Shown: positions 40,326 through 60,505 of the stretch, one piece after another
Layout of the letters: each line of letters begins with the position of its first letter
How positions within the stretch are numbered: position 1 is the stretch's first letter
NCBI RefSeq assembly: GCF_005377625.1
Contig: NZ_CP040098.1
Span: forward strand, 1,605,501 to 1,669,500
Length of the DNA stretch: 64,000 nucleotides
Source: Desulfoglaeba alkanexedens ALDC
GTDB taxonomy: Bacteria > Desulfobacterota > Syntrophobacteria > Syntrophobacterales > DSM-9756
Direction: 5' to 3'
Position numbers and translations under genes: made by a program
The notes under the pieces: model-generated
What the model was told of the DNA's origin: nothing
Databases searched by the model: none
What the model saw: the letters and a program-made list of their open reading frames with translations, nothing else

Positions 40326-42089
40326 ATGCCTTACGATCCAACCAAAATGGCCGACTGGCAGATTTCCGAAGAAGCCGAAAAGAACATGCCGTCGCCGTTT
40401 GACTGGCAGAAAAAGCTGGGCCTGCAGGCTGACGAAATCCTTCCCATGGGCCGCCTGTGCAAACTCGACTTCATGAAGATCATCAACCGGCTGAAAGACA
40501 AGCCCGACGGAAAGTACATTGAAGTCACGGCCATCACTCCTACGCCGCTTGGGGAAGGCAAGAGCACCACGTCACTAGGGTTGATCGAAGGTCTCGGAAA
40601 GCGCGGAAAGAATGTCGGCGGTTGTCTCCGGCAGCCTTCCGGCGGCCCTACCATGAATATCAAGGGAACGGCGGCCGGCGGCGGAAACGCCCTCCTCATT
40701 CCCATGACGGAATTCTCCATGGGTCTTACCGGCGATATCAACGACATCATGAACGCCCACAATCTGGCCATGGTCGCTCTTACGGCCCGCATGCAGCACG
40801 AGCGGAACTACACGGACGAACAGTTGGAGCGCCTCACCAAGATGCGCCGCCTGGACATCGACCCCACCCGGGTGGAAATGGGCTGGATCATCGACTTCTG
40901 CGCTCAGGCTCTCCGGAACATCGTCATCGGGCTCGGCGGCCGCTATGACGGTTACACCATGCAATCGCGGTTCGGGATCGCGGTGAGTTCGGAACTGATG
41001 GCCATTCTTTCCATCGTGCGGGACCTCAAAGACCTGCGCGAACGGATGGCCAACATCACGGTGGCCTTCGACAAGCGCGGAAAGGCCGTGACCACAGGAG
41101 ACCTTGAAGTCGCCGGGGCCATGACCGCCTTCATGCGAAACACCATCAACCCGACGCTTTGCTGCAGCGCCGAATATCAGCCGGTGATGGTGCATGCCGG
41201 TCCCTTCGCGAACATCGCCGTGGGTCAGTCGTCGATCATCGGCGACCGAGTCGGCTTGAAGCTTTTTGATTACCACGTGACCGAAAGCGGTTTCGCAGCG
41301 GATATCGGCTTCGAAAAATTCTGGAACGTGAAATGCCGGTACAGCGGTCTGAAGCCTCATGTGTCGGTACTCACCACCACCATCCGGGCCCTCAAGATGC
41401 ACGGCGGCGGGCCCAAGGTCGTGGCGGGGCTTCCACTTCCGGAAGAATACACCAAGGAAAACGTGGCGCTGGTGGAAAAGGGCATCGAGAACATGGTGCA
41501 CCACATCAACACGATCCGAAAATCCGGGATGAACCCGGTGGTGTGCATCAATGCGTTCCATACGGACACCAAGGACGAAATCGCCGTCGTTCGCAAGGCC
41601 GCGGAAGCCGCCGGTGCCCGTTGCGCTCTGTCCGAACATTGGCTCAAAGGCGGTGAAGGGGCGCTGGAACTCGCCGACGCCGTCATCGATGCCTGCGAAC
41701 AAAAGAGTGAATTCAAGTTCCTGTATCCTATGGAAATGAAGCTCCGCGACCGCGTGGCACTTATCGCGAAGGAAGTCTACGGAGCCGACGGTGTGAGCTG
41801 GTCGCCGGAAGCCGAGGCCAAGGCCAAGATGCTCGAGGCGGACCCCAAGTACGATGATTTCGCCACCATGATGGTCAAGACTCACCTGAGCCTCACCCAC
41901 GATCCGACGATCAAGGGCGTTCCCAAGGGTTGGGTGCTTCCCATCCGCGACGTGCTCATCTACTCGGGAGCCAAGTTCCTGTGTCCGTGCGCCGGGACTA
42001 TCAGCCTCATGCCGGGCACCTCTTCCAATCCGGCCTTCCGCCGCATCGACGTGGACGTGGAAACCGGAAAGGTGATGGGTCTGTTCTAG
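40326..42089 (+). CDS. fhs: Formate-tetrahydrofolate ligase
   Basis: 587-residue cytoplasmic enzyme joining formate to tetrahydrofolate with ATP, the first tetrahydrofolate step of the Wood-Ljungdahl methyl branch. The ATP-binding motif [18 protein letters not shown] (about residues 75-92), [35 protein letters not shown] and the C-terminal [15 protein letters not shown] are characteristic, and the length is typical. A strong AGGAGG supports the ATG at 40326; an in-frame extension upstream is not protein-like. It is separated from folD by an intrinsic terminator. Confidence 0.97.
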
Positions 42090-42103
42090 CAATCGCTTCC
42101 AAG

Positions 42104-42136
42104 GAATGGCAGGGACAGACCCTGCCATTCTTTTTT
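42104..42136 (+). terminator. Intrinsic terminator between fhs and folD
   Basis: GAATGGCAGGG and CCCTGCCATTC form an 11-base perfect stem with a 5-base loop, followed by six T. It should stop most fhs transcripts before folD, whose start lies 23 bases further on, unless there is read-through. Confidence 0.9.
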
Positions 42137-42158
42137 GGGTCCGTAAAGGAGGGAGACA

Positions 42159-43049
42159 ATGGCTGCCAAACTGATCAAAGGCGCTGAAGTGGCCAAGGAA
42201 ATCCGGGCCGAATTGCAGCAGGAAGTTCAGCAGATGAAGGAAAAGCATGGGGTCGAACCCGGACTCGTGACCATCCTGGTCGGAGAAAATCCGGCGTCCC
42301 AAAGCTATGTCCGAGCCAAGCAAAAGGCCGCCCACGATCTGGGCTTCTATTCCGTCCAGGACAACCAGCCGGCGGATCTGAGCGAAGAGAAACTGCTGGC
42401 CCTCATCGATCAGTACAACAAGGACCCTAAGATCGACGGCATCCTGGTTCAGCTCCCGCTCCCCAAGCATATCGACGAAAACAAGATCCTCTACGCCATC
42501 GATCCTGGAAAAGATGTGGACGCCTTTCATCCGTTCAACGTGGGCAAACTCATGATCGGCCAGCCTGACTACCTCCCCTGCACCCCGGCGGGTATCCAGG
42601 AGCTTCTGGTCCGCTCCGGAACGGAAACCTCGGGTGCGGAAGTGGTGGTGGTGGGCCGGTCGAACATCGTCGGGAAGCCCATCGCGGTGATGCTCATGCA
42701 GAAAGGCAAGGGCGCCAATGCCACGGTGACCGTATGCCACACGCGGACCAGGGACGTTCAGTTCCACACCAAGCGGGCCGATATCCTCATCGTGGCCGCG
42801 GGCGTTACGGAATACGTTAAAGGAAGCTGGGTGAAGCCCGGTGCGGTGGTGATCGACGTGGGGGTGAACGAAGTGGGGAAGACCGCCGACGGCAAGCGCA
42901 TCCTCAAGGGCGACGTGGCTTTCGATGAAGTGGCCGAGGTGGCCAGTGCCATCACACCGGTCCCCGGCGGTGTGGGCCCTATGACCATCACCATGCTGAT
43001 GAAAAACACCGTCCGCGCGTGTAAAGTGCACCACAACATCAAAGACTGA
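42159..43049 (+). CDS. folD: Bifunctional methylene-tetrahydrofolate dehydrogenase/methenyl-tetrahydrofolate cyclohydrolase
   Basis: 296-residue cytoplasmic enzyme that interconverts formyl-, methenyl- and methylene-tetrahydrofolate. Family motifs are GEKxxSQSYVRAKQKAA (here ENPASQSYVRAKQKAAHDLG, with the catalytic Lys), GILVQLPLPKHIDE, KDVDAFHPFNVGKL and the nucleotide-binding VVVGRSNIVGKPIAVMLMQ. It ends with the PVPGGVGPMTITMLMKNT signature. The start has a good GGAGG site. Together with Fhs and MetF it covers the methyl branch except methyltransferase and CO dehydrogenase/acetyl-CoA synthase, which are not in the window. Confidence 0.97.
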   Translation: MAAKLIKGAEVAKEIRAELQQEVQQMKEKHGVEPGLVTILVGENPASQSYVRAKQKAAHDLGFYSVQDNQPADLSEEKLLALIDQYNKDPKIDGILVQLPLPKHIDENKILYAIDPGKDVDAFHPFNVGKLMIGQPDYLPCTPAGIQELLVRSGTETSGAEVVVVGRSNIVGKPIAVMLMQKGKGANATVTVCHTRTRDVQFHTKRADILIVAAGVTEYVKGSWVKPGAVVIDVGVNEVGKTADGKRILKGDVAFDEVAEVASAITPVPGGVGPMTITMLMKNTVRACKVHHNIKD

Positions 43050-43430: not shown

Positions 43431-43841
43431 TCACCCTTTCACAGGGCTCGGACCCAGAGCTCGGATCTTTTCGACCATCTCCAAGGCCGCTTCGATGAAA
43501 AGCTGCCCTTTTCCGGCCGACATGTTGTAGAGGGCCACGCGCTCGGTTTCCATGCCCAGCTCGGCAAGGATGCCCTGAACCTGTTTCACTTTTTTCTGCG
43601 CCTTCTCGACCCCGTGCTTGAATTGGCAGCTGTCGGGCTGACATCCGGCCACGTAGACCCCGTCGGCCCCGGATTCGAGCGCCTTGAGGATGTGCAGGGT
43701 GTCGAGACGGCCGGTGCAGGGCAACTGGATGATCCGGACGTTTTCGGGAAGATGAAGCCCCATCTTCTCGGAAACCTGCGCCGCCGCGGAAGCGCAGTTC
43801 GAGCAGCAGAATGCGACGATTTTCGGTTCAAATTGGCTCAT
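43431..43841 (-). CDS. mvhD: MvhD-family iron-sulfur protein (cysteine form)
   Basis: 136-residue homologue of the delta subunit of methyl-viologen-reducing hydrogenase, which binds a 2Fe-2S cluster and passes electrons to HdrA. The cysteines lie in FCCSNC (C12, C13, C16), PCTGR, and AGCQPDSCQF. The start at 43841 is chosen for its AAGGAG site and because it aligns with the paralogue at 58344. It is the last gene of the minus-strand set, 40 bases after the double-FAD HdrA. No hydrogenase large subunit is nearby, so another donor such as MetF/MetV or a formate dehydrogenase is likely. Confidence 0.9.
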   Translation of the reverse strand: MSQFEPKIVAFCCSNCASAAAQVSEKMGLHLPENVRIIQLPCTGRLDTLHILKALESGADGVYVAGCQPDSCQFKHGVEKAQKKVKQVQGILAELGMETERVALYNMSAGKGQLFIEAALEMVEKIRALGPSPVKG

Positions 43842-43880
43842 GGATGAACTCCTTATGGCGTCTGACATGCCTCAGGGAAT

Positions 43881-46646
43881 CTAGTTGGCCAGCTTTCCGA
43901 AGAGCGAACCGGCCACGGCGGCGATCTGATCGTCGCTGAGTCGCCTGAAGGAAATGGCTTTAGCCGGACATTCGCTCACGCACATCCCGCATCCCTGGCA
44001 CAATCCGGGATCGATGTAGGCCGCACCCTGGGAGCTGTCGATGAAGGGGATATTGAAGGGGCAGGTGCGGACGCAGGTGAGGCAGACGGCGCACTTGTCG
44101 GGGTTCACTTCCGCGACCGCTCCGCCCACCAGCACGCTCGTTCGGTTGAGCACCCGCATGGCGCGGCCCGCCGCCGCCCAGCCTTCGGCAAGCGCTTCCT
44201 CCACCGGTTTGGGACCCAGGGCGAGCCCCGCAAAGTAGACGCCTTCCGTTTCACCATCCACCGGGCGCATCTTGGCCGGGCTTTCCTTGAAGAAGCCGTC
44301 CTCGTTCACGGTCACCTTGTAAATTTTTGCCAGGGAATCGGGCGCTTCCGGGAGGATGGCCGTCTGGAGCGAGATGAAATCGGGCTTCAAGATGAGTTCG
44401 CGGCCGAGGATCGGGTCCAGCACCGTCACCTGGAGTCCACCGTTGGTGACTTGGACGGACGGTTTGCGGTCCAGGTCGAATCGGACGAAGAGTACGCCTT
44501 TTTCCCGCGCTTCCTTGTAGAGGGATTCCCTTTCGCCGAAGGTGCGCACCTCGCGGTAAAGGACATAGACGTCCATGCCAGGATGGCGGGTTTTCAGGTC
44601 GACGGCCGCTCGGACGGCGAAGGTGCAGCAAAGCCGACTGCAGTAAGGCCGCTCGGGCTCCCGCGACCCGACGCATTGGATGAAGACGCCGCAGGCGGCA
44701 TCGGCAAAAGCATTGGGATCATCGATGAGCTTCTTGGCAAAATCCGACCAACGATAGATTTCCGGGTGTTCACCGTAGGCGTATTCGGTGGGTATCAAGG
44801 GATGACCACCTGTGGCGAGAATCACCGCGCCGTGATGCACTTCGATCGTTTCGCCGTTGCTTTGAATCTTGGAGGTGTAGTGGCCCGCGAATCCCTTGGC
44901 GTCCAGCACCTGGGCGCCGGTCAAAACCCGGATGTTGGGGGTGGATTCCACGCGCGAAATCAGGTCCTTGAGATAAGCCTGAACCGATGCTCCGGTCCAG
45001 GTGGATTTCACCTTATGAGCGTGCCCACCCAATCGGTCGTTCTTTTCAACCAGGGTGACGGGGACGTCCTGTTCGGCGAGGGCAAGCGCCGCCTGCATGC
45101 CGGCGAGTCCTCCGCCCACCACCAGGGCGGACCGCTCGACGGGAATTTCCGTTAATTTGAGGGGTTCGAGGAGGGCCGCCCGGACGGTTGAGGTCCGGAG
45201 GAGATCCTTCAGCCGGTCCAGTTCCGTCGGATTGGCGCTCAGCGTTCTCAGATCCAGGAAATCATATAGCGTGGGATTGAGACCGGCCTGGGCCATGGCC
45301 CATTCCACCAGTTCCTGGTGCATGATGGGGCTGCAGCTGGCGTAGATCAGCCGGTTGGCCGCCTTCTCTTTGAGCAGCCCCGCGAGCTTCATGAAGGAAG
45401 CAGCGTCGGTGAGGTCCAGCCGCTGGGCGAAGGCCACGTTGGGCAGCGATTCGGCGAACTTCTGAAGTTCGCCCACCAGGCTGTCGAAGCCCGGGGCCTT
45501 GGTTGGGCAGAGGCTCAAGACCACGCCGATGGCCGGCTTTTCACCGGAAACGTCCCGGTACTCGGCTGTCGCGGCGACCGGAACGGCTTTCTTGAGGAGT
45601 GCCGCCGCCTTTGCGGCCGCGGCGGCCGCTTCCACCACGCTTTGATGAACATCCCGCGGTCCGGCGGCGCCGCCGCACACCAGGATACCCGCTACGTTCG
45701 TTTCCATGGGCTTGAATTCGTTTGTGGCCACATATCGGTCGGCGGTCAAGTGGACGCCCAGTCGCTTGGCCAGGCTTTCCAGTTCGGCCGACGGGCGCAG
45801 GCCCACCGAAAGGACCACCAGATCGAAGACCTCTTCGCACTTTTGGCCGTTTTCATCCACATATGCCAGGACCAGGTCCTCCGCTCCGGGGGCCTTTTCG
45901 ATGCTGTGGATGCGGCTGCGAACAAGGCGGACACCCTTTTCCTGCGCTGCATTGTAGTATTGTTCGTAACCCTTACCGTGAGTCCGCATGTCCATGAAGA
46001 AGATGTACGTCGCCGTTTCCGGGTTCATGTCCTTCATCTGCACGGCTTCCTTCAAGGCGTACATGCAGCAGACGGACGAGCAGTAGGGCGCATCGCACTT
46101 GTTGATTTCGCGGGATCCCACGCATTGGAGCCATGCCACGCGCTTGGGAATTTCACCGTCGGAGGGGCGTTTCACCACGCCCTGAAAAGGACCGGTCGGT
46201 TTCTGCAGCCATTCCAATTCAATGCTTGTCACCACGTTCTGGAACTGTGCATAGGCGTAGGTGTCGTAAGCCGTGGGGTCGAAGGTTTCCACACCTAGAG
46301 CCAAAATGATGGCTCCGGCTTTCACCTGTTCCGATCCCGCTGGGCCCTGAAGGGTCACCGTGAAATCGCCCGCCCGGCCCGCTGCGTCGACCACCTGGGT
46401 CTCCGTCCATACCGTGATTTGCGGGTGCTGCAGGCAGGCGGTCTCCCGGTTGGCCGCCTTGCAGCAACTGCAAAGCGGGTAGAGGCGGTGGAGTTTGGAC
46501 ACGGTACCGCCCAGTTCCGCATGCTTCTCCACGAGATCCACGTGATATCCCTGGGCGACCAGATCGAGAGCGGCATTCATGCCGGCCACACCACCCCCGA
46601 CCACCAGGACGTTTCCTCTGCCGTTGCTTCCTGTTGCATCCGTCAT
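43881..46646 (-). CDS. hdrA: HdrA-like flavoprotein with two FAD domains
   Basis: 921-residue homologue of heterodisulfide reductase subunit A, the flavoprotein core that can split electron pairs. The first FAD motif VLVVGGGVAGMNAALDL is at about residues 13-29, followed by the HdrA cysteine segment RLYPLCSCC. A second FAD motif (ALVVGGGLAGMQAAL) begins about residue 500, so the protein is a tandem duplication of the HdrA FAD unit. Two 4Fe-4S clusters are bound by CAVCLTCVRTCPFNIP and CQGCGMCVSECPAK at the C-terminus. A sigma-70-like promoter lies about 420 bases upstream, which would let it be expressed separately from the HdrA-GltD gene. MvhD follows directly. Confidence 0.92.
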   Translation of the reverse strand: MTDATGSNGRGNVLVVGGGVAGMNAALDLVAQGYHVDLVEKHAELGGTVSKLHRLYPLCSCCKAANRETACLQHPQITVWTETQVVDAAGRAGDFTVTLQGPAGSEQVKAGAIILALGVETFDPTAYDTYAYAQFQNVVTSIELEWLQKPTGPFQGVVKRPSDGEIPKRVAWLQCVGSREINKCDAPYCSSVCCMYALKEAVQMKDMNPETATYIFFMDMRTHGKGYEQYYNAAQEKGVRLVRSRIHSIEKAPGAEDLVLAYVDENGQKCEEVFDLVVLSVGLRPSAELESLAKRLGVHLTADRYVATNEFKPMETNVAGILVCGGAAGPRDVHQSVVEAAAAAAKAAALLKKAVPVAATAEYRDVSGEKPAIGVVLSLCPTKAPGFDSLVGELQKFAESLPNVAFAQRLDLTDAASFMKLAGLLKEKAANRLIYASCSPIMHQELVEWAMAQAGLNPTLYDFLDLRTLSANPTELDRLKDLLRTSTVRAALLEPLKLTEIPVERSALVVGGGLAGMQAALALAEQDVPVTLVEKNDRLGGHAHKVKSTWTGASVQAYLKDLISRVESTPNIRVLTGAQVLDAKGFAGHYTSKIQSNGETIEVHHGAVILATGGHPLIPTEYAYGEHPEIYRWSDFAKKLIDDPNAFADAACGVFIQCVGSREPERPYCSRLCCTFAVRAAVDLKTRHPGMDVYVLYREVRTFGERESLYKEAREKGVLFVRFDLDRKPSVQVTNGGLQVTVLDPILGRELILKPDFISLQTAILPEAPDSLAKIYKVTVNEDGFFKESPAKMRPVDGETEGVYFAGLALGPKPVEEALAEGWAAAGRAMRVLNRTSVLVGGAVAEVNPDKCAVCLTCVRTCPFNIPFIDSSQGAAYIDPGLCQGCGMCVSECPAKAISFRRLSDDQIAAVAGSLFGKLAN

Positions 46647-47165: not shown

Positions 47166-50100
47166 TCAGGAGGCGGCGGCCGCGGTTTTTTCGATGAGCT
47201 GCTGATCGGTGAAATGCTGCAGCTGGATGGCCTTTGCGGGACACTCGGCCACGCAGGCGCCACAGCCTTGACAAAGGGCCGGGTCGATATAGGCGGCCTT
47301 TTTCACGGATTGCCCGGGCGATACCACATAAGGCACATGGTAGGGGCAAGTGCGCACGCAGGTGAGGCAGACGGCGCACCGCGACGGATCCACCACCGCC
47401 ACGCGGCCGCCCACGGTCATTTCTTCACGGCTGAGGATGGTGGCTGCTCTGGATGCCGCCCCGCGGGCCTGGGCGATGGATTCGTCGAGAAACTTGGGGC
47501 TGTGCGCCAGTCCACACAGATAGATTCCCGCGTTGGCGAAATCCAGGGGTCGGAGCTTCACGTGGGCTTCCATGAAAAAGCCGTCGGCGTCGGTATTCAG
47601 TTTGAAGATTTCCGCCAGATCCCGGCTGGAGACTCTCGGCACCACCGCAGCACTCAAGATCAACCGGTCGGCTCGAAGCACGATTTCCCGTCTCAGGTTC
47701 TGGTCGAAGACGCGGATTCGGAGCGTATCATCCTGCCTGGTCACCTCAGGTTTTTTTTCGGGTTCATACCGGCAGAAGCGAACGCCCTGCTCCCGCGCTT
47801 TCCGATAGAGAATCTCCCGGGTTCCGAAGGTTCGAATGTCGCGGTAAAGGATGGTGATGCGGGCCTCGGGGGTGATTTCCTTCAGCTTCAGAGCATTGCT
47901 CACCGCCGCCGTGCAACATACCCGGCTGCAGTAAGGCCGCTCTTCATCCCGTGACCCCACGCATTGAATCATGACGAAATCCCGAGCGCCGGCAAGCTTC
48001 CCACCGCCGTCCGCCAGGAGTTCATGAAAGGCCAGCTGGGTGAGAACCCGTTCGTCTTCTCCATAGAGGTATTCTTTGGGCCGGTATTCCTGGCCTCCGG
48101 TGGCCACGATGAGCGCGCCGTACTGCACGGTTCGATCCCCGTCCGCCGTTCGGACGACGCTTTCGAAGCGGCCCGGATGGCCTGAAAACGAAGCGATCTG
48201 GGATCCTTTGAAGACCTGGATGTTCGGGTGGCTCTCGATGGAGGCGATCAATTCCGAAACGTACGGTTGAACCGCTTCCCCCGTCGGCAGAAAGCGCATG
48301 GTCTTTCGAGCCTGGCCGCCCAGTTCTCCTTCCTTTTCCACCAGGATGGTGGGGAATCCCTGGTCGGCCAAGTTGAGCGCCGCCGTCATTCCGGCCACGC
48401 CTCCCCCCACCACCAGGGCCGACTGGACCACAGAGAATGGGATTTCGTAGAGAGGTTCCAGAAACCGGGCCTTGGCGACGGCCATGCGGACGAGATCCTT
48501 GGCCTTTTCCGTGGCCTGGTCCGGGTCCGCCGCGTGGACCCAGCTGCATTGATCGCGGATGTTGGCCATTTCGAACAGATACTTGTTAAGGCCGGCTTCG
48601 CGGATGCAATCCTGAAAAAGGGGTTCATGGGTTCTGGGGGAACAGGAGGCCACCACCACCCGGTTGAGGTGGTGTTCTTGGACGATTTCCTTGATGCGTT
48701 CGGTGGAATCCGTCGAGCAGGCGAACAGGAGGTGGTCCGCGTAGGTCACGTTGGGAAGGGTTTTCGCGTATTCGGTCACCGCTTCCACGTTCACCACGCC
48801 GGCGATGTTGATGCCGCAATGGCAGACGAAGACCCCGATGCGCGGGATTTCCCCGGTTACCTGCCGCTCCTGGATCACGGCGGGGCGGGTGATGAGCGTG
48901 TTTCGAGCGGGGGCGAGGAGCCGTTGGGCGGAAGCCGCCGCAGCGCTGGCCTGAGCCACGGTTTCGGGGATGTCCTTGGGGCTGGTGCTCACCCCGCACG
49001 CGTACACGCCTGGCCGTGACGAAGCGACCGGATCGAACGGATCGCAGCCGGTGAACCCGAAACGGTCGGTGGCGATCCCCAGCGTCGCGGCCGTCTTGAG
49101 GGCGTCTTCGGTCGGCTTCAGGCCCACCGATAAGATGACCAGGTCGAAGATTTCGCGGCGGATTTCTCCCGTTTCGTCCACGTACTGGATTTCCAGGTCG
49201 CCGCCCTGAGGCGTTTCGATCACGCGGCTGATGTGGCTCCGAACGTAGCGGACGCCGTGCTGCGTCCGTGCGCGTTCGTAATAGCGCTCGAATCCCTTCC
49301 CCATGGCGCGGATATCGATGAAAAAAATCGTCGCCTCAAGGTCCGGTTCGTGCTCCCGGGCCACGATGGCTTGCTTGGTGGCGTACATGCAACAAACCGA
49401 AGAACAATAATCCTGGCCGACGGTGACATCCCTCGAGCCGACGCATTGAATCCAGGCCACCTTCTTCGGGGCTCGTCCGTCTCCCGGTCTCTGGATGTGG
49501 CCGCCTGTGGGCCCGGTGGGTGCCAGAAACCGTTCGAACTCCAGGCTGGTGATCACGTTGGGATACCGGCCGTAGCCGTATTCGGGCTTCTTTCGAGCGT
49601 CGAAGGGTCGAAAACCTGTGGCGTAGAGAACGGCGCCCACTTCCACTTCTTCGATTTGGGGCGACATGGAGTGGTCGATGGCGCCCGCGAGGCAGGCATC
49701 CACGCACCGATAGCATTCACTGCAAACCCCGCACTGAAGACAGCGCCGGGCTTCGTAGCGGGCCGCTTCCTCGGAAAAGCCCTTCTGCACCTCTTCGAAG
49801 GTCGTTCGGCGAACGTGCGGTTCCAGTCTCGGCATGAGCGCCCGGCGTGCGGGATAAACCGTCATTCGGGGCACGGGGGCCGTACGGCGGGTCTGTATCC
49901 GCCCGGTCCTGAGGTTTTCTCCCTTGAGGTATCGATCGATGGATTCGGCCGCTTCCTTTCCCGCGGCGATGGCCTGCACCACCGTGGCGGGTCCCGTGGC
50001 CACGTCGCCTCCCGAAAACACGCCGGGGAGGTTCGTTTCGCAGGTCACCGGGTCCACCATCACCGTCCCCCAGCGGCTGAGTTCGGGACGTTCGTCGGGC

Positions 50101-51635
50101 GGCAGGCCCTCGAAGACATCCAGATCCGTCATCAGGCCGATGGCGGCGATCACGCTGTCGACGTTCATGGTGTACTCGGATCCTTCCACCGGAATGGGCC
50201 GGCGCCTGCCGCTTTCGTCCGATTTGCCCAGTTCCATATGAATGACATGGAGCGCCTTTACGTTGCCGGCTTCGTCGCTCACAATTGCCACGGGAGCCGC
50301 AAGAAAGTGTATTTTCACGCCTTCTTCTTCGGCCTCTTCGATTTCTTCGACATTGGCCGGCATCTCGGACCGGCTCCTTCGGTAGAGTATATGAACTTCT
50401 TCGGCGCCGAGCCGGAGAGCCGACCGCGCTACATCCAGCGCACTGTTCCCGCCGCCGATCACGGCCACCTGTTTTCCCAGTTCGGGCGTTTCGCCCAGGT
50501 TCACCTTCCGGAGGAAGCTGGTGGCGGTATAGACTTGCGGAAGGTCTTCTCCGGGAATGTTGAGGGTGAGGTCTTTCTGAGTGCCGATGGCGAGGAAGAA
50601 GGCTTCGAAACCCTCTTTTCGGAGATCCTGGAAGCCGAAGTCGACCCCAAAACGCCTTCCGGTTACAATCTGAACGCCGGCGGCCCGGATATAATCGATT
50701 TCGGCCTGAAGGATGGAACGTGGCAGCCGATATTCCGGTATCCCATAGCGAAGCCATCCGCCGGGTTCGGGCATGGCCTCGAAGAGGGTCACTTCGTAGC
50801 CTTTCCGTGCCAGGTAGTATCCGGCGGTGAGGCCCGCGGGGCCGGAACCGATGATCGCAACCTTTTTGCCGTTGGACTCTTTCCTCTCTGGGGGCTTTTG
50901 CGTTCCTTCCTGCAGCTCCAAGTCGCTCACGAATCGTTTGAGAAAATCGATAGCGATCGGTTCGTCGTATTGCCCGCGGCTGCAGACCGATTCACAGGGG
51001 TGATGGCAGACTCGCCCGCAGATCCCCGGCAGGGGGTTGTCCTTTCGGATGAGCTCCAGCGCTTCCTGGTAGCGGCCCTGAGCGATGAGCGCCACGTAGC
51101 CCTGGACGCTGATCCCCGCCGGGCAGGCGGCCTTACAAGGAGCGGTGCCCCGTTTGTCGATGGCGAAACTCGAAGGGATAGCCTGAGGAAAATGCCGGTA
51201 GATGGCCTTGGTCGCATTCAGCCCTTCGTTGAATGCCGCCGGTATCTCCACCGGGCATACCTTCAAGCATTCACCGCAGGCGGTGCACTTGTCTTCGTCC
51301 ACGAAGCGGGGTTCCCGAAGCAATCTGACCTTGAAGTCGCCCGGTTCACCCGAAATCGATTGAACGGTGGTGCGGGTGAGGATCCGGATGTCGGGATGGT
51401 TGGCCACTTCGATGAGTTTCGGAGAAAGCATGCACGTCGAACAGTCGTTGGTGGGAAACGTCTTGTCGAGTTGAGCCATGACGCCCCCGATACTGATATC
51501 TTTTTCCGCCAGGATCACCTGATAGCCGCTGTTGGCTAGATCGAGGCTCGCCTGAATGCCCCCGATGCCTCCGCCGATAACCAGAACCGATCCGATCACT
51601 CGGGAAGAACGGGACTGCTCTTGATGCGCGCTCAT
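47166..51635 (-). CDS. HdrA fused with a GltD-like NAD(P)H-binding domain
   Basis: 1489-residue flavo-iron-sulfur protein. Order: HdrA FAD motif (residues 17-30), HdrA cysteines (NDCSTC), a 4Fe-4S site CTACGECLKVCP (about 117-128), a cysteine-rich GltD-type N-domain (about 167-220), a GltD FAD motif VAIIGSGPAGLTAGYYLA (259-276) and an NAD(P)H motif VAVIGGGNSALDVA (390-403). Then come CLQCGVCSECYRCVDAC, the rest of HdrA, a second HdrA FAD unit (ALVVGGGVAGMTAALNLA) and two C-terminal 4Fe-4S sites. A full glutamate-synthase-small-subunit-like module is thus inserted into an HdrA. I infer that NADH or NADPH is the two-electron partner for a bifurcating flavin. HdrB and HdrC are encoded just upstream. 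Confidence 0.9.
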   Translation of the reverse strand: MSAHQEQSRSSRVIGSVLVIGGGIGGIQASLDLANSGYQVILAEKDISIGGVMAQLDKTFPTNDCSTCMLSPKLIEVANHPDIRILTRTTVQSISGEPGDFKVRLLREPRFVDEDKCTACGECLKVCPVEIPAAFNEGLNATKAIYRHFPQAIPSSFAIDKRGTAPCKAACPAGISVQGYVALIAQGRYQEALELIRKDNPLPGICGRVCHHPCESVCSRGQYDEPIAIDFLKRFVSDLELQEGTQKPPERKESNGKKVAIIGSGPAGLTAGYYLARKGYEVTLFEAMPEPGGWLRYGIPEYRLPRSILQAEIDYIRAAGVQIVTGRRFGVDFGFQDLRKEGFEAFFLAIGTQKDLTLNIPGEDLPQVYTATSFLRKVNLGETPELGKQVAVIGGGNSALDVARSALRLGAEEVHILYRRSRSEMPANVEEIEEAEEEGVKIHFLAAPVAIVSDEAGNVKALHVIHMELGKSDESGRRRPIPVEGSEYTMNVDSVIAAIGLMTDLDVFEGLPPDERPELSRWGTVMVDPVTCETNLPGVFSGGDVATGPATVVQAIAAGKEAAESIDRYLKGENLRTGRIQTRRTAPVPRMTVYPARRALMPRLEPHVRRTTFEEVQKGFSEEAARYEARRCLQCGVCSECYRCVDACLAGAIDHSMSPQIEEVEVGAVLYATGFRPFDARKKPEYGYGRYPNVITSLEFERFLAPTGPTGGHIQRPGDGRAPKKVAWIQCVGSRDVTVGQDYCSSVCCMYATKQAIVAREHEPDLEATIFFIDIRAMGKGFERYYERARTQHGVRYVRSHISRVIETPQGGDLEIQYVDETGEIRREIFDLVILSVGLKPTEDALKTAATLGIATDRFGFTGCDPFDPVASSRPGVYACGVSTSPKDIPETVAQASAAAASAQRLLAPARNTLITRPAVIQERQVTGEIPRIGVFVCHCGINIAGVVNVEAVTEYAKTLPNVTYADHLLFACSTDSTERIKEIVQEHHLNRVVVASCSPRTHEPLFQDCIREAGLNKYLFEMANIRDQCSWVHAADPDQATEKAKDLVRMAVAKARFLEPLYEIPFSVVQSALVVGGGVAGMTAALNLADQGFPTILVEKEGELGGQARKTMRFLPTGEAVQPYVSELIASIESHPNIQVFKGSQIASFSGHPGRFESVVRTADGDRTVQYGALIVATGGQEYRPKEYLYGEDERVLTQLAFHELLADGGGKLAGARDFVMIQCVGSRDEERPYCSRVCCTAAVSNALKLKEITPEARITILYRDIRTFGTREILYRKAREQGVRFCRYEPEKKPEVTRQDDTLRIRVFDQNLRREIVLRADRLILSAAVVPRVSSRDLAEIFKLNTDADGFFMEAHVKLRPLDFANAGIYLCGLAHSPKFLDESIAQARGAASRAATILSREEMTVGGRVAVVDPSRCAVCLTCVRTCPYHVPYVVSPGQSVKKAAYIDPALCQGCGACVAECPAKAIQLQHFTDQQLIEKTAAAAS

Positions 51636-51690
51636 GCTGCCTCCGAAATCTCCACTGTGGCATGATGAAAGGGTCTCCCCCGGGTAATGC

Positions 51691-52545
51691 TCAGGCCAGG
51701 CCCACCGACCGCAGGAGCGGCAGCGGGTCCACCATGTGGCGGCGGAGCCAACGGTCCGGTCTGCGGCACCCCAGAGCGATCCCCATAAGTTCCGTGAAAT
51801 AGAAGATGGGTAGTTCGTAGGATGTGCCGGCGAGCCGCCCGATCCGCTCCTGATACAGGTCCAGGTTGGCTTGACACATCTGGCAGGAAGCTACGATGCA
51901 GTGGGCACCTTGAGCGACGGCTCGGTCGTAGAGTTTTCGAACCAGTTCAAAAACCAGGTCCGGGTGGGTCACAGCGTGGCTTGCTCCGCAGCAGTCCGTC
52001 TTGAACGGCCAATCGAGCACTTCGGCTCCCAGGTCCGCCAACAGTTCGTCCATGTTGGTTGGGTTTTCCCAGGTCGGTGCATCAGTCATCTTTGGCGGCC
52101 GGTTCACCATGCAGCCGTAGTAGCAGACGGCCCGCAGTCCCTGGAGCGGCCGAACCAACCGATCGCGCACCTCTTGGCGGATGTTGGGTCGGCTCAAATA
52201 ATCCAGTAAATCAAAAACCTGGATGGTACCCTCAAGGGGCATGCCATACCTACGATCTGTATCGTTCAGCAGGCGCTTTTGGGCGACTTTCAACCGGTTG
52301 AAGCATAGGGCGCACGGAACGACGATATCGAGGCCTTCTCTTTCGGCGATGACCAGGTTCCGGCCGGCAAGCCTGACGGCGATCCGTTCATCCAAGCTGT
52401 GAGCAGCGGTGGCGCCGCAGCAATTCCAATCCGGCAGTTCCCGCAGCTTGATCTCCAGCAGGTCACAGACGTCATGGATGGATTGCCGATAGTCCCGGGC
52501 GGTTCCTTGCAGTGTGCAGCCGGGATAATAGCCTATCTCATGCAT
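51691..52545 (-). CDS. hdrB: HdrB-like CCG-domain protein
   Basis: 284-residue homologue of heterodisulfide reductase subunit B, whose CCG domains hold non-cubane iron-sulfur clusters that reduce disulfides. The first CCG domain ends in DWNCCGATAAHS with PCALCFNR. The second has YYGCMVNRPP, TDCCGASHAV and ASCQMCQANLD. The ATG at 52545 has GAGG six bases upstream. The true substrate in sulfate reducers is unknown: no CoB-S-S-CoM exists there, so a DsrC trisulfide, another disulfide or ferredoxin are candidates. Confidence 0.93.
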   Translation of the reverse strand: MHEIGYYPGCTLQGTARDYRQSIHDVCDLLEIKLRELPDWNCCGATAAHSLDERIAVRLAGRNLVIAEREGLDIVVPCALCFNRLKVAQKRLLNDTDRRYGMPLEGTIQVFDLLDYLSRPNIRQEVRDRLVRPLQGLRAVCYYGCMVNRPPKMTDAPTWENPTNMDELLADLGAEVLDWPFKTDCCGASHAVTHPDLVFELVRKLYDRAVAQGAHCIVASCQMCQANLDLYQERIGRLAGTSYELPIFYFTELMGIALGCRRPDRWLRRHMVDPLPLLRSVGLA

Positions 52546-52613
52546 GGGTGACCTCACGTTTCAGGACGGTTTAAAGAGGCCGTCGGATCTCAACGCCGAA
52601 GGCGGCGGTGCCT

Positions 52614-53228
52614 TCAAGTATTTTCGTCGCCTTCCGTTTCCGCGGCACCCGGTTCTTCCTCGATGAGGCTCCGGATTTCCTGCTTGTTCATCACCCCGTG
52701 GGGAAACAGCGGCAACCGGCGCCTGGAAAAAAGAGCCCACCCGAGGCGGAGGTCCCCCCAGAGGGTGCCCGTTTCCAGTTTGGCCTTCCATTCGCCGCTT
52801 TTCAGCAGGTACCGGTTGAGCAGGCCGCTTTCGAAAACGCGCCCGCGCCGGGCGATGTCATCGAGGAACACCTTGTGAAAGGCGTACGTGGGGTTTCCCT
52901 TCGGCCGGACGATCCCTCGCCGGTGTGCCTCGCTCTTGAGATGATCCATCAAGCCGGCGATGTCGATGTCGTTCGGGCACCGCGTGGTGCAGGTTTCGCA
53001 AGACGAGCAAACCCAGATGGTGGCGCTGTGGAGGACTTCCTCTTCCCGACCCAACAGCAGAAGCCGAACGATCTGGTCCGGATAATAATCCATGGCGAAG
53101 GTGAGCGGACAGCCGTTGGTGCATTTTCGGCACTGGTAGCAGGCCGTTACAGTGATACCGGTTGCATCGCGCACCTTCTCCGCCAAGTCGAAATACACTT
53201 CCAGGGGCGCAGCGGCCGTCTGTTCCAT
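52614..53228 (-). CDS. hdrC: HdrC-like iron-sulfur protein
   Basis: 204-residue homologue of heterodisulfide reductase subunit C, which wires HdrA to HdrB through two 4Fe-4S clusters. The motifs CYQCRKCTNGCPL (about residues 28-40) and CSSCETCTTRCP (about residues 74-85) are complete. The ATG at 53228 (MEQTAAAP) is chosen because AGGGAG precedes it; an upstream start would add 34 basic residues. It lies between the GcvH-like gene and hdrB, with short gaps. Confidence 0.93.
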   Translation of the reverse strand: MEQTAAAPLEVYFDLAEKVRDATGITVTACYQCRKCTNGCPLTFAMDYYPDQIVRLLLLGREEEVLHSATIWVCSSCETCTTRCPNDIDIAGLMDHLKSEAHRRGIVRPKGNPTYAFHKVFLDDIARRGRVFESGLLNRYLLKSGEWKAKLETGTLWGDLRLGWALFSRRRLPLFPHGVMNKQEIRSLIEEEPGAAETEGDENT

Positions 53229-53339
53229 CAGGCGCTCCCTTGCTTCCTTTGTATGCAACACAAATCGGGAGCGGGATTCTCCCCGCCCCCGATGCCTTCT
53301 GAAAACAACCCGGTCGCAACCCATCCGCACGGCACGCTA

Positions 53340-54251
53340 TCACGGCCGCAGGAATTCCTTGACCAAAGTGTCCCACTGCAGATGCCGTACATTCCCGTAG
53401 ATATCCTCCGCCACTTCGCCACCCGTAGCCGCCAGGGGGAAGGGTTCCCCTGCCGAAATCATGCTTTCCAGCTTGTGCACGTGATCCGTGAGCCAGGAAA
53501 GAGCGCTGTCGCCGATGAGGAGCTCCTGAACGTTCTGTTTGAGATTTCGAGGTTCCACTGCCAGCAGCCAGCCTTCGGTGTAAGGCGCCCGTTTCGCTAG
53601 ATCCGGCGTGTCCAGCACTCGGTGATTCACCGCCACTACGATGCCTTCCAACGGAGCGAGGAAATCCGCAAGCTTTTCTTCCCGCCTGAGTGTCCATCCC
53701 GGCCGATGCTGTTCCAAGTGGGCTCCCAACCTGGGAAGACGAAATTCAGTAACATATCCTAACAAACGAAGCGCAAAGTCATCAACACCTATTCGGATCA
53801 GCCCTCCGGGTTCGACTCGGGCCCAAGTGTGGCCTGCGTGATAGTAATAATCATCCGCTATCGCGAATCCACTCACTTTGCGGATGGTTGGAACACCGAC
53901 CGCCGCGGCCAGTTCCCGGTCTTCGATCATCTGATCGAATTCGCAATTGTTGCAGTTGTACGCGTTCCCGCACAATCGGAAAGCCACCCTCCCGGACAGC
54001 ATGTGGCGGCATTCCTTCTGGTTGTAAGGCTTTTCCCGCATGACTTCTCGCCAGCTCACCTGCTTTTCGGGATGATCCGCCACCCGCGCGCTCATGGCCT
54101 TGTCGAAGGAACACGTGAGGCAGTCGTAGGCGTTGTCGCAGAGCTTGAAATTGATGACACCGGCTTTCATCCAGACACAGGGGAGTTCGTCGCCGATGGC
54201 GAAAGCGCGAACCTTGCTCCGGGTTTTTGCGTGCATCTTCTTGCTTTCCAT
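53340..54251 (-). CDS. GcvH-like protein with N-terminal cysteine-rich repeats
   Basis: 303-residue soluble protein, much longer than the roughly 130-residue glycine-cleavage H protein. The first half holds two related cysteine motifs, CDNAYDCLTCSFD and CGNAYNCNNCEFD, that may bind a metal or Fe-S cluster. The second half is a GcvH-like domain (GHTWARVEPGGLIRIGVDDF ... GYVTEFRLPRLG ... APLEGIVVAVN ... GWLLAVEP). At the lipoyl-lysine position relatives read VKAASDIYSPVSG. This protein reads EEKLADFLAPLEG, with Lys one residue displaced, so lipoylation is doubtful. It is the first gene after the sigma-54 promoter and precedes hdrC, hdrB and hdrA-gltD. It is probably a carrier or assembly partner of the Hdr complex. 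Confidence 0.8.
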   Translation of the reverse strand: MESKKMHAKTRSKVRAFAIGDELPCVWMKAGVINFKLCDNAYDCLTCSFDKAMSARVADHPEKQVSWREVMREKPYNQKECRHMLSGRVAFRLCGNAYNCNNCEFDQMIEDRELAAAVGVPTIRKVSGFAIADDYYYHAGHTWARVEPGGLIRIGVDDFALRLLGYVTEFRLPRLGAHLEQHRPGWTLRREEKLADFLAPLEGIVVAVNHRVLDTPDLAKRAPYTEGWLLAVEPRNLKQNVQELLIGDSALSWLTDHVHKLESMISAGEPFPLAATGGEVAEDIYGNVRHLQWDTLVKEFLRP

Positions 54252-54306
54252 GGCTTTCCCCTTCTGATATGGATTTTGTGTTGAATGCTTTTGCTGCTTA
54301 TGGAAA

Positions 54307-58264: not shown

Positions 58265-58343
58265 CCCTGATGCACTTGAGCCGCCTGCCGTGTGAGTCCG
58301 GGAGTCGCAAACCGGCTCCGGCCAACCTTCCGACGAGATGATC

Positions 58344-58790
58344 ATGGATGCATTCGAACCGCGAATTGTAGCTTTCTGTTGCATGTACTGAGCCTACACG
58401 GCGGCGGACCTGGCAGGTTCCATGCGACTCACTTATCCCGCGAACATCCGTATCATCAACGTCCCGTGTACGGGCCGCGTGGACATGATCCACTTGTTGA
58501 AGGCTTTTGAAAACGGCGCCGACGGCGTATACGTGGCCGGTTGCCTGGAAGGGGAATGCCACTTCCAGAACGGGAACCTCAAGGCGAAAAAACGTGTCCA
58601 CGCGGTCAGGAAGATCCTCGAAGAGATCGGGATCGAACCGGAACGGGTGGAGATGTTCAATATGGCGGCTTCCGACGGGCCGCGATTTGCGGCCGTTGCC
58701 CGGGAGATGACCGAACGTATCAGGGCCTTGGGACCGTCACCGCTTCGCAGTGCGGCACGCGGCGAGGAAGGGGTCCGGACGGCGTGCTGA
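58344..58790 (+). CDS. mvhD: MvhD-family iron-sulfur selenoprotein with in-frame TGA (Sec16)
   Basis: 148-residue protein if the TGA at 58389-58391 is read as selenocysteine. The reading frame before the TGA, MDAFEPRIVAFCCMY, and after it, AYTAADLAGSMRLTYPANIR, aligns without gaps to the cysteine paralogue at 43841 (MSQFEPKIVAFCCSN-C-ASAAAQ...). The TGA replaces that protein's Cys16. Twenty bases after the TGA a hairpin, GGACCT-GGC-AGGTTCC (58406-58421), with a bulged T and G in the loop, has the shape of a bacterial SECIS. Downstream PCTGR and AGCLEGECHF retain the other cysteines. Ordinary gene calling would start at 58422 and lose the N-terminus. An ATG at 58338 is an alternative start. 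MetV follows, so it probably feeds electrons between Hdr and MetFV. Confidence 0.85.
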
Positions 58791-58910: not shown

Positions 58911-59582
58911 ATGGTTGTCGCGGAACGAAAGCCCATCGAAGAAATCCTTGCCATGGTCGCCGATTACAGGAAGATCCTTTTGGTCGGCTGCAAGGGTTGC
59001 GTGACGGTCTGCTGTGCGGGCGGGACGAAGGAAGTGGGGATTCTCGCTTCGGCGTTGCGGATCGCGAGGAAAAAGGAAGGCAAACCGCTGGAAGTGGTGG
59101 AACACACGCTGGAACGGCAGTGCGATCCCGAGTACATCGAACAGCTGGCGCCCATGCTGGAGGGCGACGGGATCGAGGCGGTGGTGTCCATGGCCTGCAG
59201 TGTGGGTCCCCAATACATCGCCAAACGTTATGTCATCCCGGTCTATCCGGCGCTCAACACGACCTTCATCGGCGGGTCGTTGGAACACGGAGTCTGGGCG
59301 GAATACTGCCAGGCCTGCGGGAATTGCATCATCCATCATTTCGGCGGCCTGTGCCCGATCTCGCGTTGTTCCAAGAGCCTCATGAACGGTCCGTGCGGCG
59401 GATCCGCCAACGGCAAGTGCGAGGTGAGCCCGGAAATCGACTGCGTGTGGCACCTCATTTACGACCGCATGAAAGAACTGGGGCAGTTGGATAAATTGCG
59501 CCAGGTTTTCCCCGCAAGGGATTGGTCCACGAGCCGCGACGGCGGTCCCCGCAAGATCGTTAGGGAGGATTTGAAGCTATGA
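58911..59582 (+). CDS. metV: MetV, zinc/iron-sulfur partner of methylene-tetrahydrofolate reductase
   Basis: 223-residue protein of the methylene-tetrahydrofolate reductase C-terminal-domain family, required with MetF for activity in acetogens. Cysteines lie in VGCKGCVTVCCAGG (about residues 28-41), ACSVG, and the C-terminal cluster AEYCQACGNCIIHHFGGLCP with SLMNGPCGG. The ATG at 58911 is preferred over an upstream ATG at 58869 because GGAGGAAGGG precedes it. The stop overlaps the metF start (ATGA), so translation is coupled. Confidence 0.9.
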   Translation: MVVAERKPIEEILAMVADYRKILLVGCKGCVTVCCAGGTKEVGILASALRIARKKEGKPLEVVEHTLERQCDPEYIEQLAPMLEGDGIEAVVSMACSVGPQYIAKRYVIPVYPALNTTFIGGSLEHGVWAEYCQACGNCIIHHFGGLCPISRCSKSLMNGPCGGSANGKCEVSPEIDCVWHLIYDRMKELGQLDKLRQVFPARDWSTSRDGGPRKIVREDLKL

Positions 59583-60505
59583 AAGCTGGAAGCAATCTCG
59601 AAAAAGTCTTGACCAGCGGTCATTTTGCGCTCACCGGCGAACTCGGTCCTCCCAGGGGGGCGAACGTCGAGGTGATCCGTAAGAAGGCGGCGTTCCTCAG
59701 GGACAAGGTGGATTCCATCAATGTGACCGACAACCAGACGTCGGTGGTTCGCATGTCCAGCCTCGCTGTCTGCAAGCTTCTGGTGGACATGGGCCTGGAA
59801 CCCAATCTTCAGATGGTTTGCCGGGACCGCAACCGGATCGCCATGCAGAGCGACCTGCTCGGCGCCTACGCCTTGGGCATCCGGAACGTGCTGTGCCTTT
59901 CCGGCGATCACAACAAGTTCGGTGACCACCCCCAGTCGAAAAACGTCTTCGACCTGGATTCCATGCAGCTTCTGGCGATGGTGAAGAAGCTCCGTGATGA
60001 AGGCAGAATGTTGAGCGGTCAGGAATGCGACGGGGTGCCCAAGTTCTTCATTGGAGCGGCGGCCAATCCTTTCGGCGATCCCTTCGAGTTTCGGGTCACG
60101 CGGTTGGCGAAAAAGATCGACTCGGGAGTGGATTTCGTTCAGACCCAGTGCATCTACAACATGGACAAGTTCCGGACCTACATGAAAATGGCCCACGAAG
60201 AGGGGCTCACGGAAAAATGTTTCATCCTGGCCGGCATCACCCCGCTCAAATCCGTCGGAATGGCCCGCTACATGGCCAAGTTCGTTCCGGGACTCGAAGT
60301 GCCGGACTACTACATCGAGCGGCTCAAGGGTGTCGAAAAGAACAAACAGGCCGAGGAAGGCATCAAGATCGCGGTGGAGCAGATCCAGGAAGTCCGGGAA
60401 ATGCCGGGTGTGGCCGGGGTGCACCTGATGGCCATCGAGTGGGAAGAAAGGGTGCCGGAAATCGTTGAAGCGGCCGGTCTGCTGCCGCGGCCCAGCGTGA
60501 ACTGA
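59579..60505 (+). CDS. metF: Methylene-tetrahydrofolate reductase
   Basis: 308-residue flavoprotein catalysing methylene-tetrahydrofolate to methyl-tetrahydrofolate, or the reverse during acetate oxidation. The TIM-barrel signatures include FALTGELGPPRGAN, DSINVTDNQTSVVRMSSLA, NVLCLSGDHNKFGDHP, FFIGAAANPFGDPFE, and the SGVDFVQTQCIYNMDKF strand. In acetogens this enzyme works with MetV and, in some, with HdrABC-MvhD. All of these parts are encoded within 17 kb here. An intrinsic terminator follows. Confidence 0.94.
   Translation: MKAGSNLEKVLTSGHFALTGELGPPRGANVEVIRKKAAFLRDKVDSINVTDNQTSVVRMSSLAVCKLLVDMGLEPNLQMVCRDRNRIAMQSDLLGAYALGIRNVLCLSGDHNKFGDHPQSKNVFDLDSMQLLAMVKKLRDEGRMLSGQECDGVPKFFIGAAANPFGDPFEFRVTRLAKKIDSGVDFVQTQCIYNMDKFRTYMKMAHEEGLTEKCFILAGITPLKSVGMARYMAKFVPGLEVPDYYIERLKGVEKNKQAEEGIKIAVEQIQEVREMPGVAGVHLMAIEWEERVPEIVEAAGLLPRPSVN

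Follow-up and report, generated by a model that had tools for sequence, protein, structure and literature searches.

A probable selenocysteine-containing MvhD encoded beside metVF in Desulfoglaeba alkanexedens

The occurrence of selenocysteine (Sec) in the FrhD/MvhD/VhuD family is established. A recent review (2026) lists it as experimentally verified, with the motif CxxU (PMC13188914), and such proteins have featured in lists of bacterial selenoproteins since 2006, including those of Syntrophobacter, Desulfobacterium and Desulfococcus. The 2006 table has 19 entries for FrhD selenoproteins of bacteria, more than one of them from Syntrophobacter fumaroxidans, and reports Sec/Cys conversions in both directions (PMC1794560). 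Desulfobacterium autotrophicum has four Sec-MvhD proteins (mvhD1, 2, 3 and 5; PMC2702500), and Desulfococcus multivorans has one Sec-mvhD, annotated as two split locus tags (dmul_C28840/50; PMC5109826). In solved relatives, the [2Fe-2S] cluster of MvhD passes electrons to the bifurcating flavin (PMC12350162). MvhD is also found with methylene-tetrahydrofolate (methylene-THF) reductase: in pulldown experiments on Sporomusa ovata, it binds HdrA, HdrB and MetF, and the HdrA of Moorella (162.8 kDa) reaches at least amino acid 1487 (PMC9430772).

The window, that is, the whole stretch of 64,000 nucleotides from Desulfoglaeba alkanexedens ALDC analysed here, contains a gene of this family that is interrupted by an in-frame TGA. 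The host genome consists of one contig of 3.37 Mb. The features of the gene are as follows:

58344-58790, + strand: predicted Sec-containing mvhD (flpD/frhD/vhuD-like), 148 aa, stop TGA at 58788-58790; PF02662, E 2e-53
58389-58391, + strand: in-frame TGA, predicted Sec16; motif FCCMYU, CxxU counted from Cys13
58406-58420, + strand: putative bacterial SECIS hairpin GGACCU-GGC-AGGUUC, starting 14 nt past the TGA

We consider 58344-58790 to be a full-length MvhD/FlpD selenoprotein gene in which the TGA is read as Sec, with a probability of roughly 95%. The TGA at 58389-58391 is the only internal one in the frame that opens at ATG 58344. An in-frame stop lies 5' of the gene at 58293, which leaves ATG 58344 available as a start, and the equivalent Met is found in most orthologues. 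The frame ahead of the TGA encodes MDAFEPRIVAFCCMY, and the read-through product begins MDAFEPRIVAFCCMYUAYTAADLAGSMR. The read-through of 58344-58787 matches PF02662 over the whole domain (positions 1-123 of 123; 180 bits against a cut-off of 22.3). Since ATG 58422 is the first listed start 3' of the TGA in this frame, an annotation clipped to the ORF 58422-58790 is plausible. The initial annotation had proposed that the TGA conceals a selenoprotein MvhD and had noted that Sec is known in such proteins from methanogens and some sulfate reducers. The proposal is supported by the Sec machinery, the TGA codons of orthologues, the conserved SECIS element and the corresponding residue of a solved structure, all described below.

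The absence of a Sec machinery can be dismissed as an objection, as selA (623 bits), selB (379 bits), selD (380 bits) and selC, encoding tRNA-Sec (75 bits; ARAGORN agrees, anticodon TCA), are all present in the genome. The selD gene (L054, G000:C1:409171-410097) has its own in-frame TGA within a GAGU-ASK motif; hence the genome encodes at least one other selenoprotein besides MvhD. A GGTCC/GGACC repeat shortly past the selD TGA could form the SECIS of that gene. The co-occurrence of selA is uninformative as to whether a given MvhD is in the Sec form, for 39 of 39 genomes in the order have selA, those of the Cys-form family among them.

The block at 58406-58420 is almost certainly a SECIS element, because it is invariant among Sec copies and the same codons vary freely among their Cys relatives. 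In particular, the 15-nt sequence GGACCTGGCAGGTTC is identical in 41 of 41 Sec rows of the codon alignment, window included. In these rows, codons 22-25 (GAC CTG GCA GGT) show zero synonymous entropy, compared with 0.64-2.25 bits at the other measured codons; among the 37 Cys homologues the values at codons 22, 24 and 25 are 0.99, 1.71 and 1.75 bits, respectively (at codon 23 the residue is not always Leu), a contrast that is drawn from related rows and is not a formal probability. The wobble base just before the block is G in 41 of 41 Sec rows and in 13 of 37 Cys rows. In L033, a Sec copy from the wider set, GGG replaces the GGT of the block. RNAfold pairs 58406-58411 with 58415-58420 (six pairs including one G.U), so that a hairpin whose loop (GGC) opens with G residues lies near the TGA. 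The initial annotation had placed a hairpin with a bulged T at 58406-58421, 20 bases downstream; the hairpin and its GGC loop stand, but it starts 14 nt past the TGA, only the loop lying at 20 nt, and the bulged form is an alternative to the unbulged pairing of 58406-58420. Folding of a single sequence proved uninformative as proof of a SECIS: the 55-nt fold around the hairpin is no more stable than shuffled sequences (z = +1.17), and when codons are randomly replaced by synonyms, approx. 9% of the resulting sequences match the native hairpin in folding. Covariation is unusable as support, since the stem is invariant. Near-SECIS blocks are also present in three Cys mvhD genes (L092, L087 and L089; GAT CTG GCA GGT TCC in L092), and these are possibly fossils of a recent Sec-to-Cys change.

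TGA occupies the same codon in all eight genomes of the window's family (one locus each) and in 18 loci of a neighbouring family, which gives 26 Sec loci in the order altogether. At these loci the motif is FCC, two residues, then U-AY. In a third family of the order, four loci (L046, L050, L051 and L052) have Cys, though the family has selA. A scan of named genomes yielded 80 loci, 77 of which contain the motif, 40 with Sec and 37 with Cys, and the codon aligned with 58389-58391 is TGA in 41 rows and TGC or TGT in 37 homologues.

These data bear on two simpler readings of the TGA. It might be a true stop, the gene being a pseudogene or encoding a truncated protein from ATG 58422; TGA is indeed a stop in table 11, and the clipped ORF 58422-58790 exists. 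However, dozens of genomes have kept both the TGA and the 15 codons upstream of it, conservation extends to both sides of the TGA, and Sec and Cys alternate at one codon, which makes a true stop very improbable. Close relatives with a plain stop and no homology upstream of it, a pattern that the initial annotation had named as contrary evidence, were likewise not what was found. The second reading, a sequencing error that turned TGC or TGT into TGA, would take one base change; it is refuted by the orthologues, as the TGA recurs along with the SECIS block in independent assemblies, and its probability is negligible.

The selenoprotein reading places the window protein within the described family, with which it shares the CxxU motif, the Sec position and deltaproteobacterial hosts such as S. 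fumaroxidans. The initial annotation had suggested an alignment with MvhD/FrhD families. Besides the PF02662 match, a solved methanogen VhuD (PDB 9sfi_K, under the name F420-non-reducing hydrogenase subunit delta) contains non-standard residues, printed X, at the positions of U16 and C67, and these are presumably Sec, judging from the family. The two proteins differ in that the second such residue of 9sfi_K corresponds to Cys67 in the window protein, which has one Sec. Along with U16, the protein has conserved cysteines at C12, C13, C42, C67 and C72, and most likely carries a [2Fe-2S] cluster; Sec16 may lie at or near it. The AlphaFold model (pLDDT 81, pTM 0.76), which holds no cofactor information, shows a fold of alternating strands and helices.

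The remaining genes of the cluster are listed below:

58914-59582, + strand: metV, encoding the zinc/FeS partner protein of methylene-THF reductase, 3' of mvhD; PF12225, E 1.2e-38
59579-60505, + strand: metF, methylene-tetrahydrofolate reductase; PF02219, E 2.4e-43
52614-53330, - strand: hdrC-like, 4Fe-4S dicluster domains; conserved in the family
51691-52542, - strand: hdrB-like, CCG domains (PF02754)
47166-51635, - strand: large hdrA, 1489 aa, with an inserted Fer4_20/pyridine-nucleotide oxidoreductase (GltD-like) module (Pfam)
43881-46646, - strand: second hdrA (921 aa), forming with the Cys mvhD a pair that six same-family genomes conserve
43431-43868, - strand: mvhD paralogue with Cys, its protein starting with MSQ at 43841; PF02662, E 1.6e-42
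40326-43049, + strand: FTHFS and folD, methyl-branch Wood-Ljungdahl genes, assigned by translated sequence and gene order

The window and six family relatives (a seventh being seen only on a short contig) share a cluster whose left part is FTHFS-folD followed on the minus strand by mvhD(Cys)-hdrA-hdrA(large)-hdrB-hdrC-gcvH-like, and whose right part, on the plus strand, is kinase-regulator, mvhD(Sec)-metV-metF-cooC-like. The GcvH-like protein (53340-54263, - strand), conserved beside hdrC in the family, has a Cys-rich N-terminal region, and Sec-mvhD is separated from the response-regulator gene by one for an archaemetzincin-like peptidase (PF07998; 57494-58066, + strand). The sister family has hdrA(large)-mvhD(Sec)-metV-metF as an uninterrupted run. 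Across many families, metV directly follows the Sec gene in 38 of the 38 loci with enough DNA, and it has the same position at 28 of 35 testable Cys homologues. Given the 38 Sec loci, the Sec protein is very probably the MvhD of a methylene-THF reductase of the Moorella/Sporomusa HdrCBA-MvhD-MetVF type. The likeness is one of genes, not of compared sequences: the set hdrCBA, mvhD, metV and metF is the same, and the large HdrA (1489 aa) has about the same size as that of Moorella. The window differs in the predicted Sec of its MvhD and in the orientation of its hdr genes, which are divergent from mvhD-metVF; PMC9430772 makes no mention of selenocysteine. Because hdrCBA shares the cluster with mvhD-metVF but lies on the opposite strand, one shared complex is proposed here from the other relatives. 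D. multivorans and D. autotrophicum resemble this case in having Sec-MvhD in sulfate reducers that use the Wood-Ljungdahl pathway; the neighbours described in the relevant passages of these two papers are hdr, mvh, fdh and dsr, not metVF, whereas the window gene lies beside metVF.

Two further alternatives concern the role of the protein. The same selenoprotein might chiefly serve a hydrogenase or a formate dehydrogenase, or be shared among several Hdr complexes, as VhuD of Methanococcus is common to hydrogenase and formate dehydrogenase (PMC6019823); the location of hdrCBA on the other strand from Sec-mvhD would also fit. This is unlikely in view of the 38 loci from many families with metV straight after the Sec gene, and the neighbourhood of Sec-mvhD in the window contains no recognisable subunit of a hydrogenase or formate dehydrogenase. 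It might also be thought that the supply of selenium decides which of two interchangeable isoforms, the Sec or the Cys copy, is used, as with Vhu and Vhc in Methanococcus, since Sec/Cys switching is documented in methanogens (PMC11097638) and has been proposed for D. autotrophicum (PMC2702500). The gap-free alignment with the Cys paralogue reported in the initial annotation was confirmed over 135 residues, with the TGA on the Cys of the paralogue, but identity is only 56%. The paralogue sits on a very long branch (its exact place in the tree is unsure), does not have the DLAGSM segment, retains Cys at the Sec position both in the window and in the six relatives from its family, and is conservatively paired with its own HdrA; for these reasons a function as a selenium-shortage backup is unlikely. 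Nor was a closer Cys copy found among the six PF02662 matches of the genome, the other two stand-alone copies being 46% identical. With a long separate branch and different neighbours, the two genes do not look like a regulated pair of the Vhu/Vhc type, which is a quite improbable explanation; the Cys paralogue more likely belongs to a separate Hdr complex. Accounting for the two paralogues, the initial annotation had offered either different redox partners or selenium supply: the former is favoured (Sec with metVF, Cys with the second hdrA), and the latter fits poorly with a distant, separately conserved paralogue.

In the reading favoured here, SelB with Sec-tRNA(Sec), guided by the hairpin at 58406-58420, would read the TGA at 58389-58391 as Sec16. 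In the HdrCBA-MvhD-MetVF reductase, the [2Fe-2S] cluster of the protein would relay electrons between the HdrCBA bifurcating module (47166-53330, - strand) and MetVF (58914-60505). The complex would serve the Wood-Ljungdahl pathway, which, if the host is a sulfate reducer like its relatives, probably oxidises acetyl-CoA for at least some of the time. Reading frame, homology, Sec machinery, conserved SECIS block and gene linkage are observed, whereas Sec insertion itself, the complex, the way its electrons flow and any advantage of selenium over sulfur at position 16 are what we infer. Cys forms of metVF-linked MvhD exist and presumably work; thus, Sec is not obligatory for the role. Homologues of this kind, with Cys, also occur at L112, L109, L114 and L157, in MAGs labelled Chloroflexi and Bacillota, labels that may be wrong. 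At L075, L083 and L112, the gene for HdrA has an in-frame TGA in place of the second Cys codon of the NDCSTC motif (position 68 in the large HdrA of the window), which suggests a CxxU Sec-HdrA. In L075 and L083, this TGA occurs on the same locus as Sec-MvhD, so that two subunits would be selenoproteins; in the Chloroflexi-labelled L112, MvhD has Cys and the TGA is in HdrA instead.

Routine gene calling is liable to clip such genes at their most important residue, so that a complex of core carbon metabolism would seem to lack an electron-transfer subunit. The conserved SECIS block of 15 nt provides a simple DNA signature with which they can be found and corrected. A literature search outside subscription journals found no paper tying Sec-MvhD to MetVF, and given this scope the link to a MetVF partner is a possible addition to knowledge. 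As Sec and Cys forms occur naturally in a single gene context, what selenium does in an Fe-S electron-transfer subunit can be examined experimentally. We propose tentatively, and with some doubt, that in Desulfobacterota a single orthologous methylene-THF reductase complex has repeatedly exchanged selenium with sulfur at this position of its MvhD. In a count of independent switches, the protein tree requires six Sec/Cys changes, but its well-supported branches force only one. If the proposal is true, the complex would offer a natural series for studying what Sec does at an electron-transferring [2Fe-2S] cluster or in its vicinity, such as tuning the cluster potential for acetyl-CoA oxidation.
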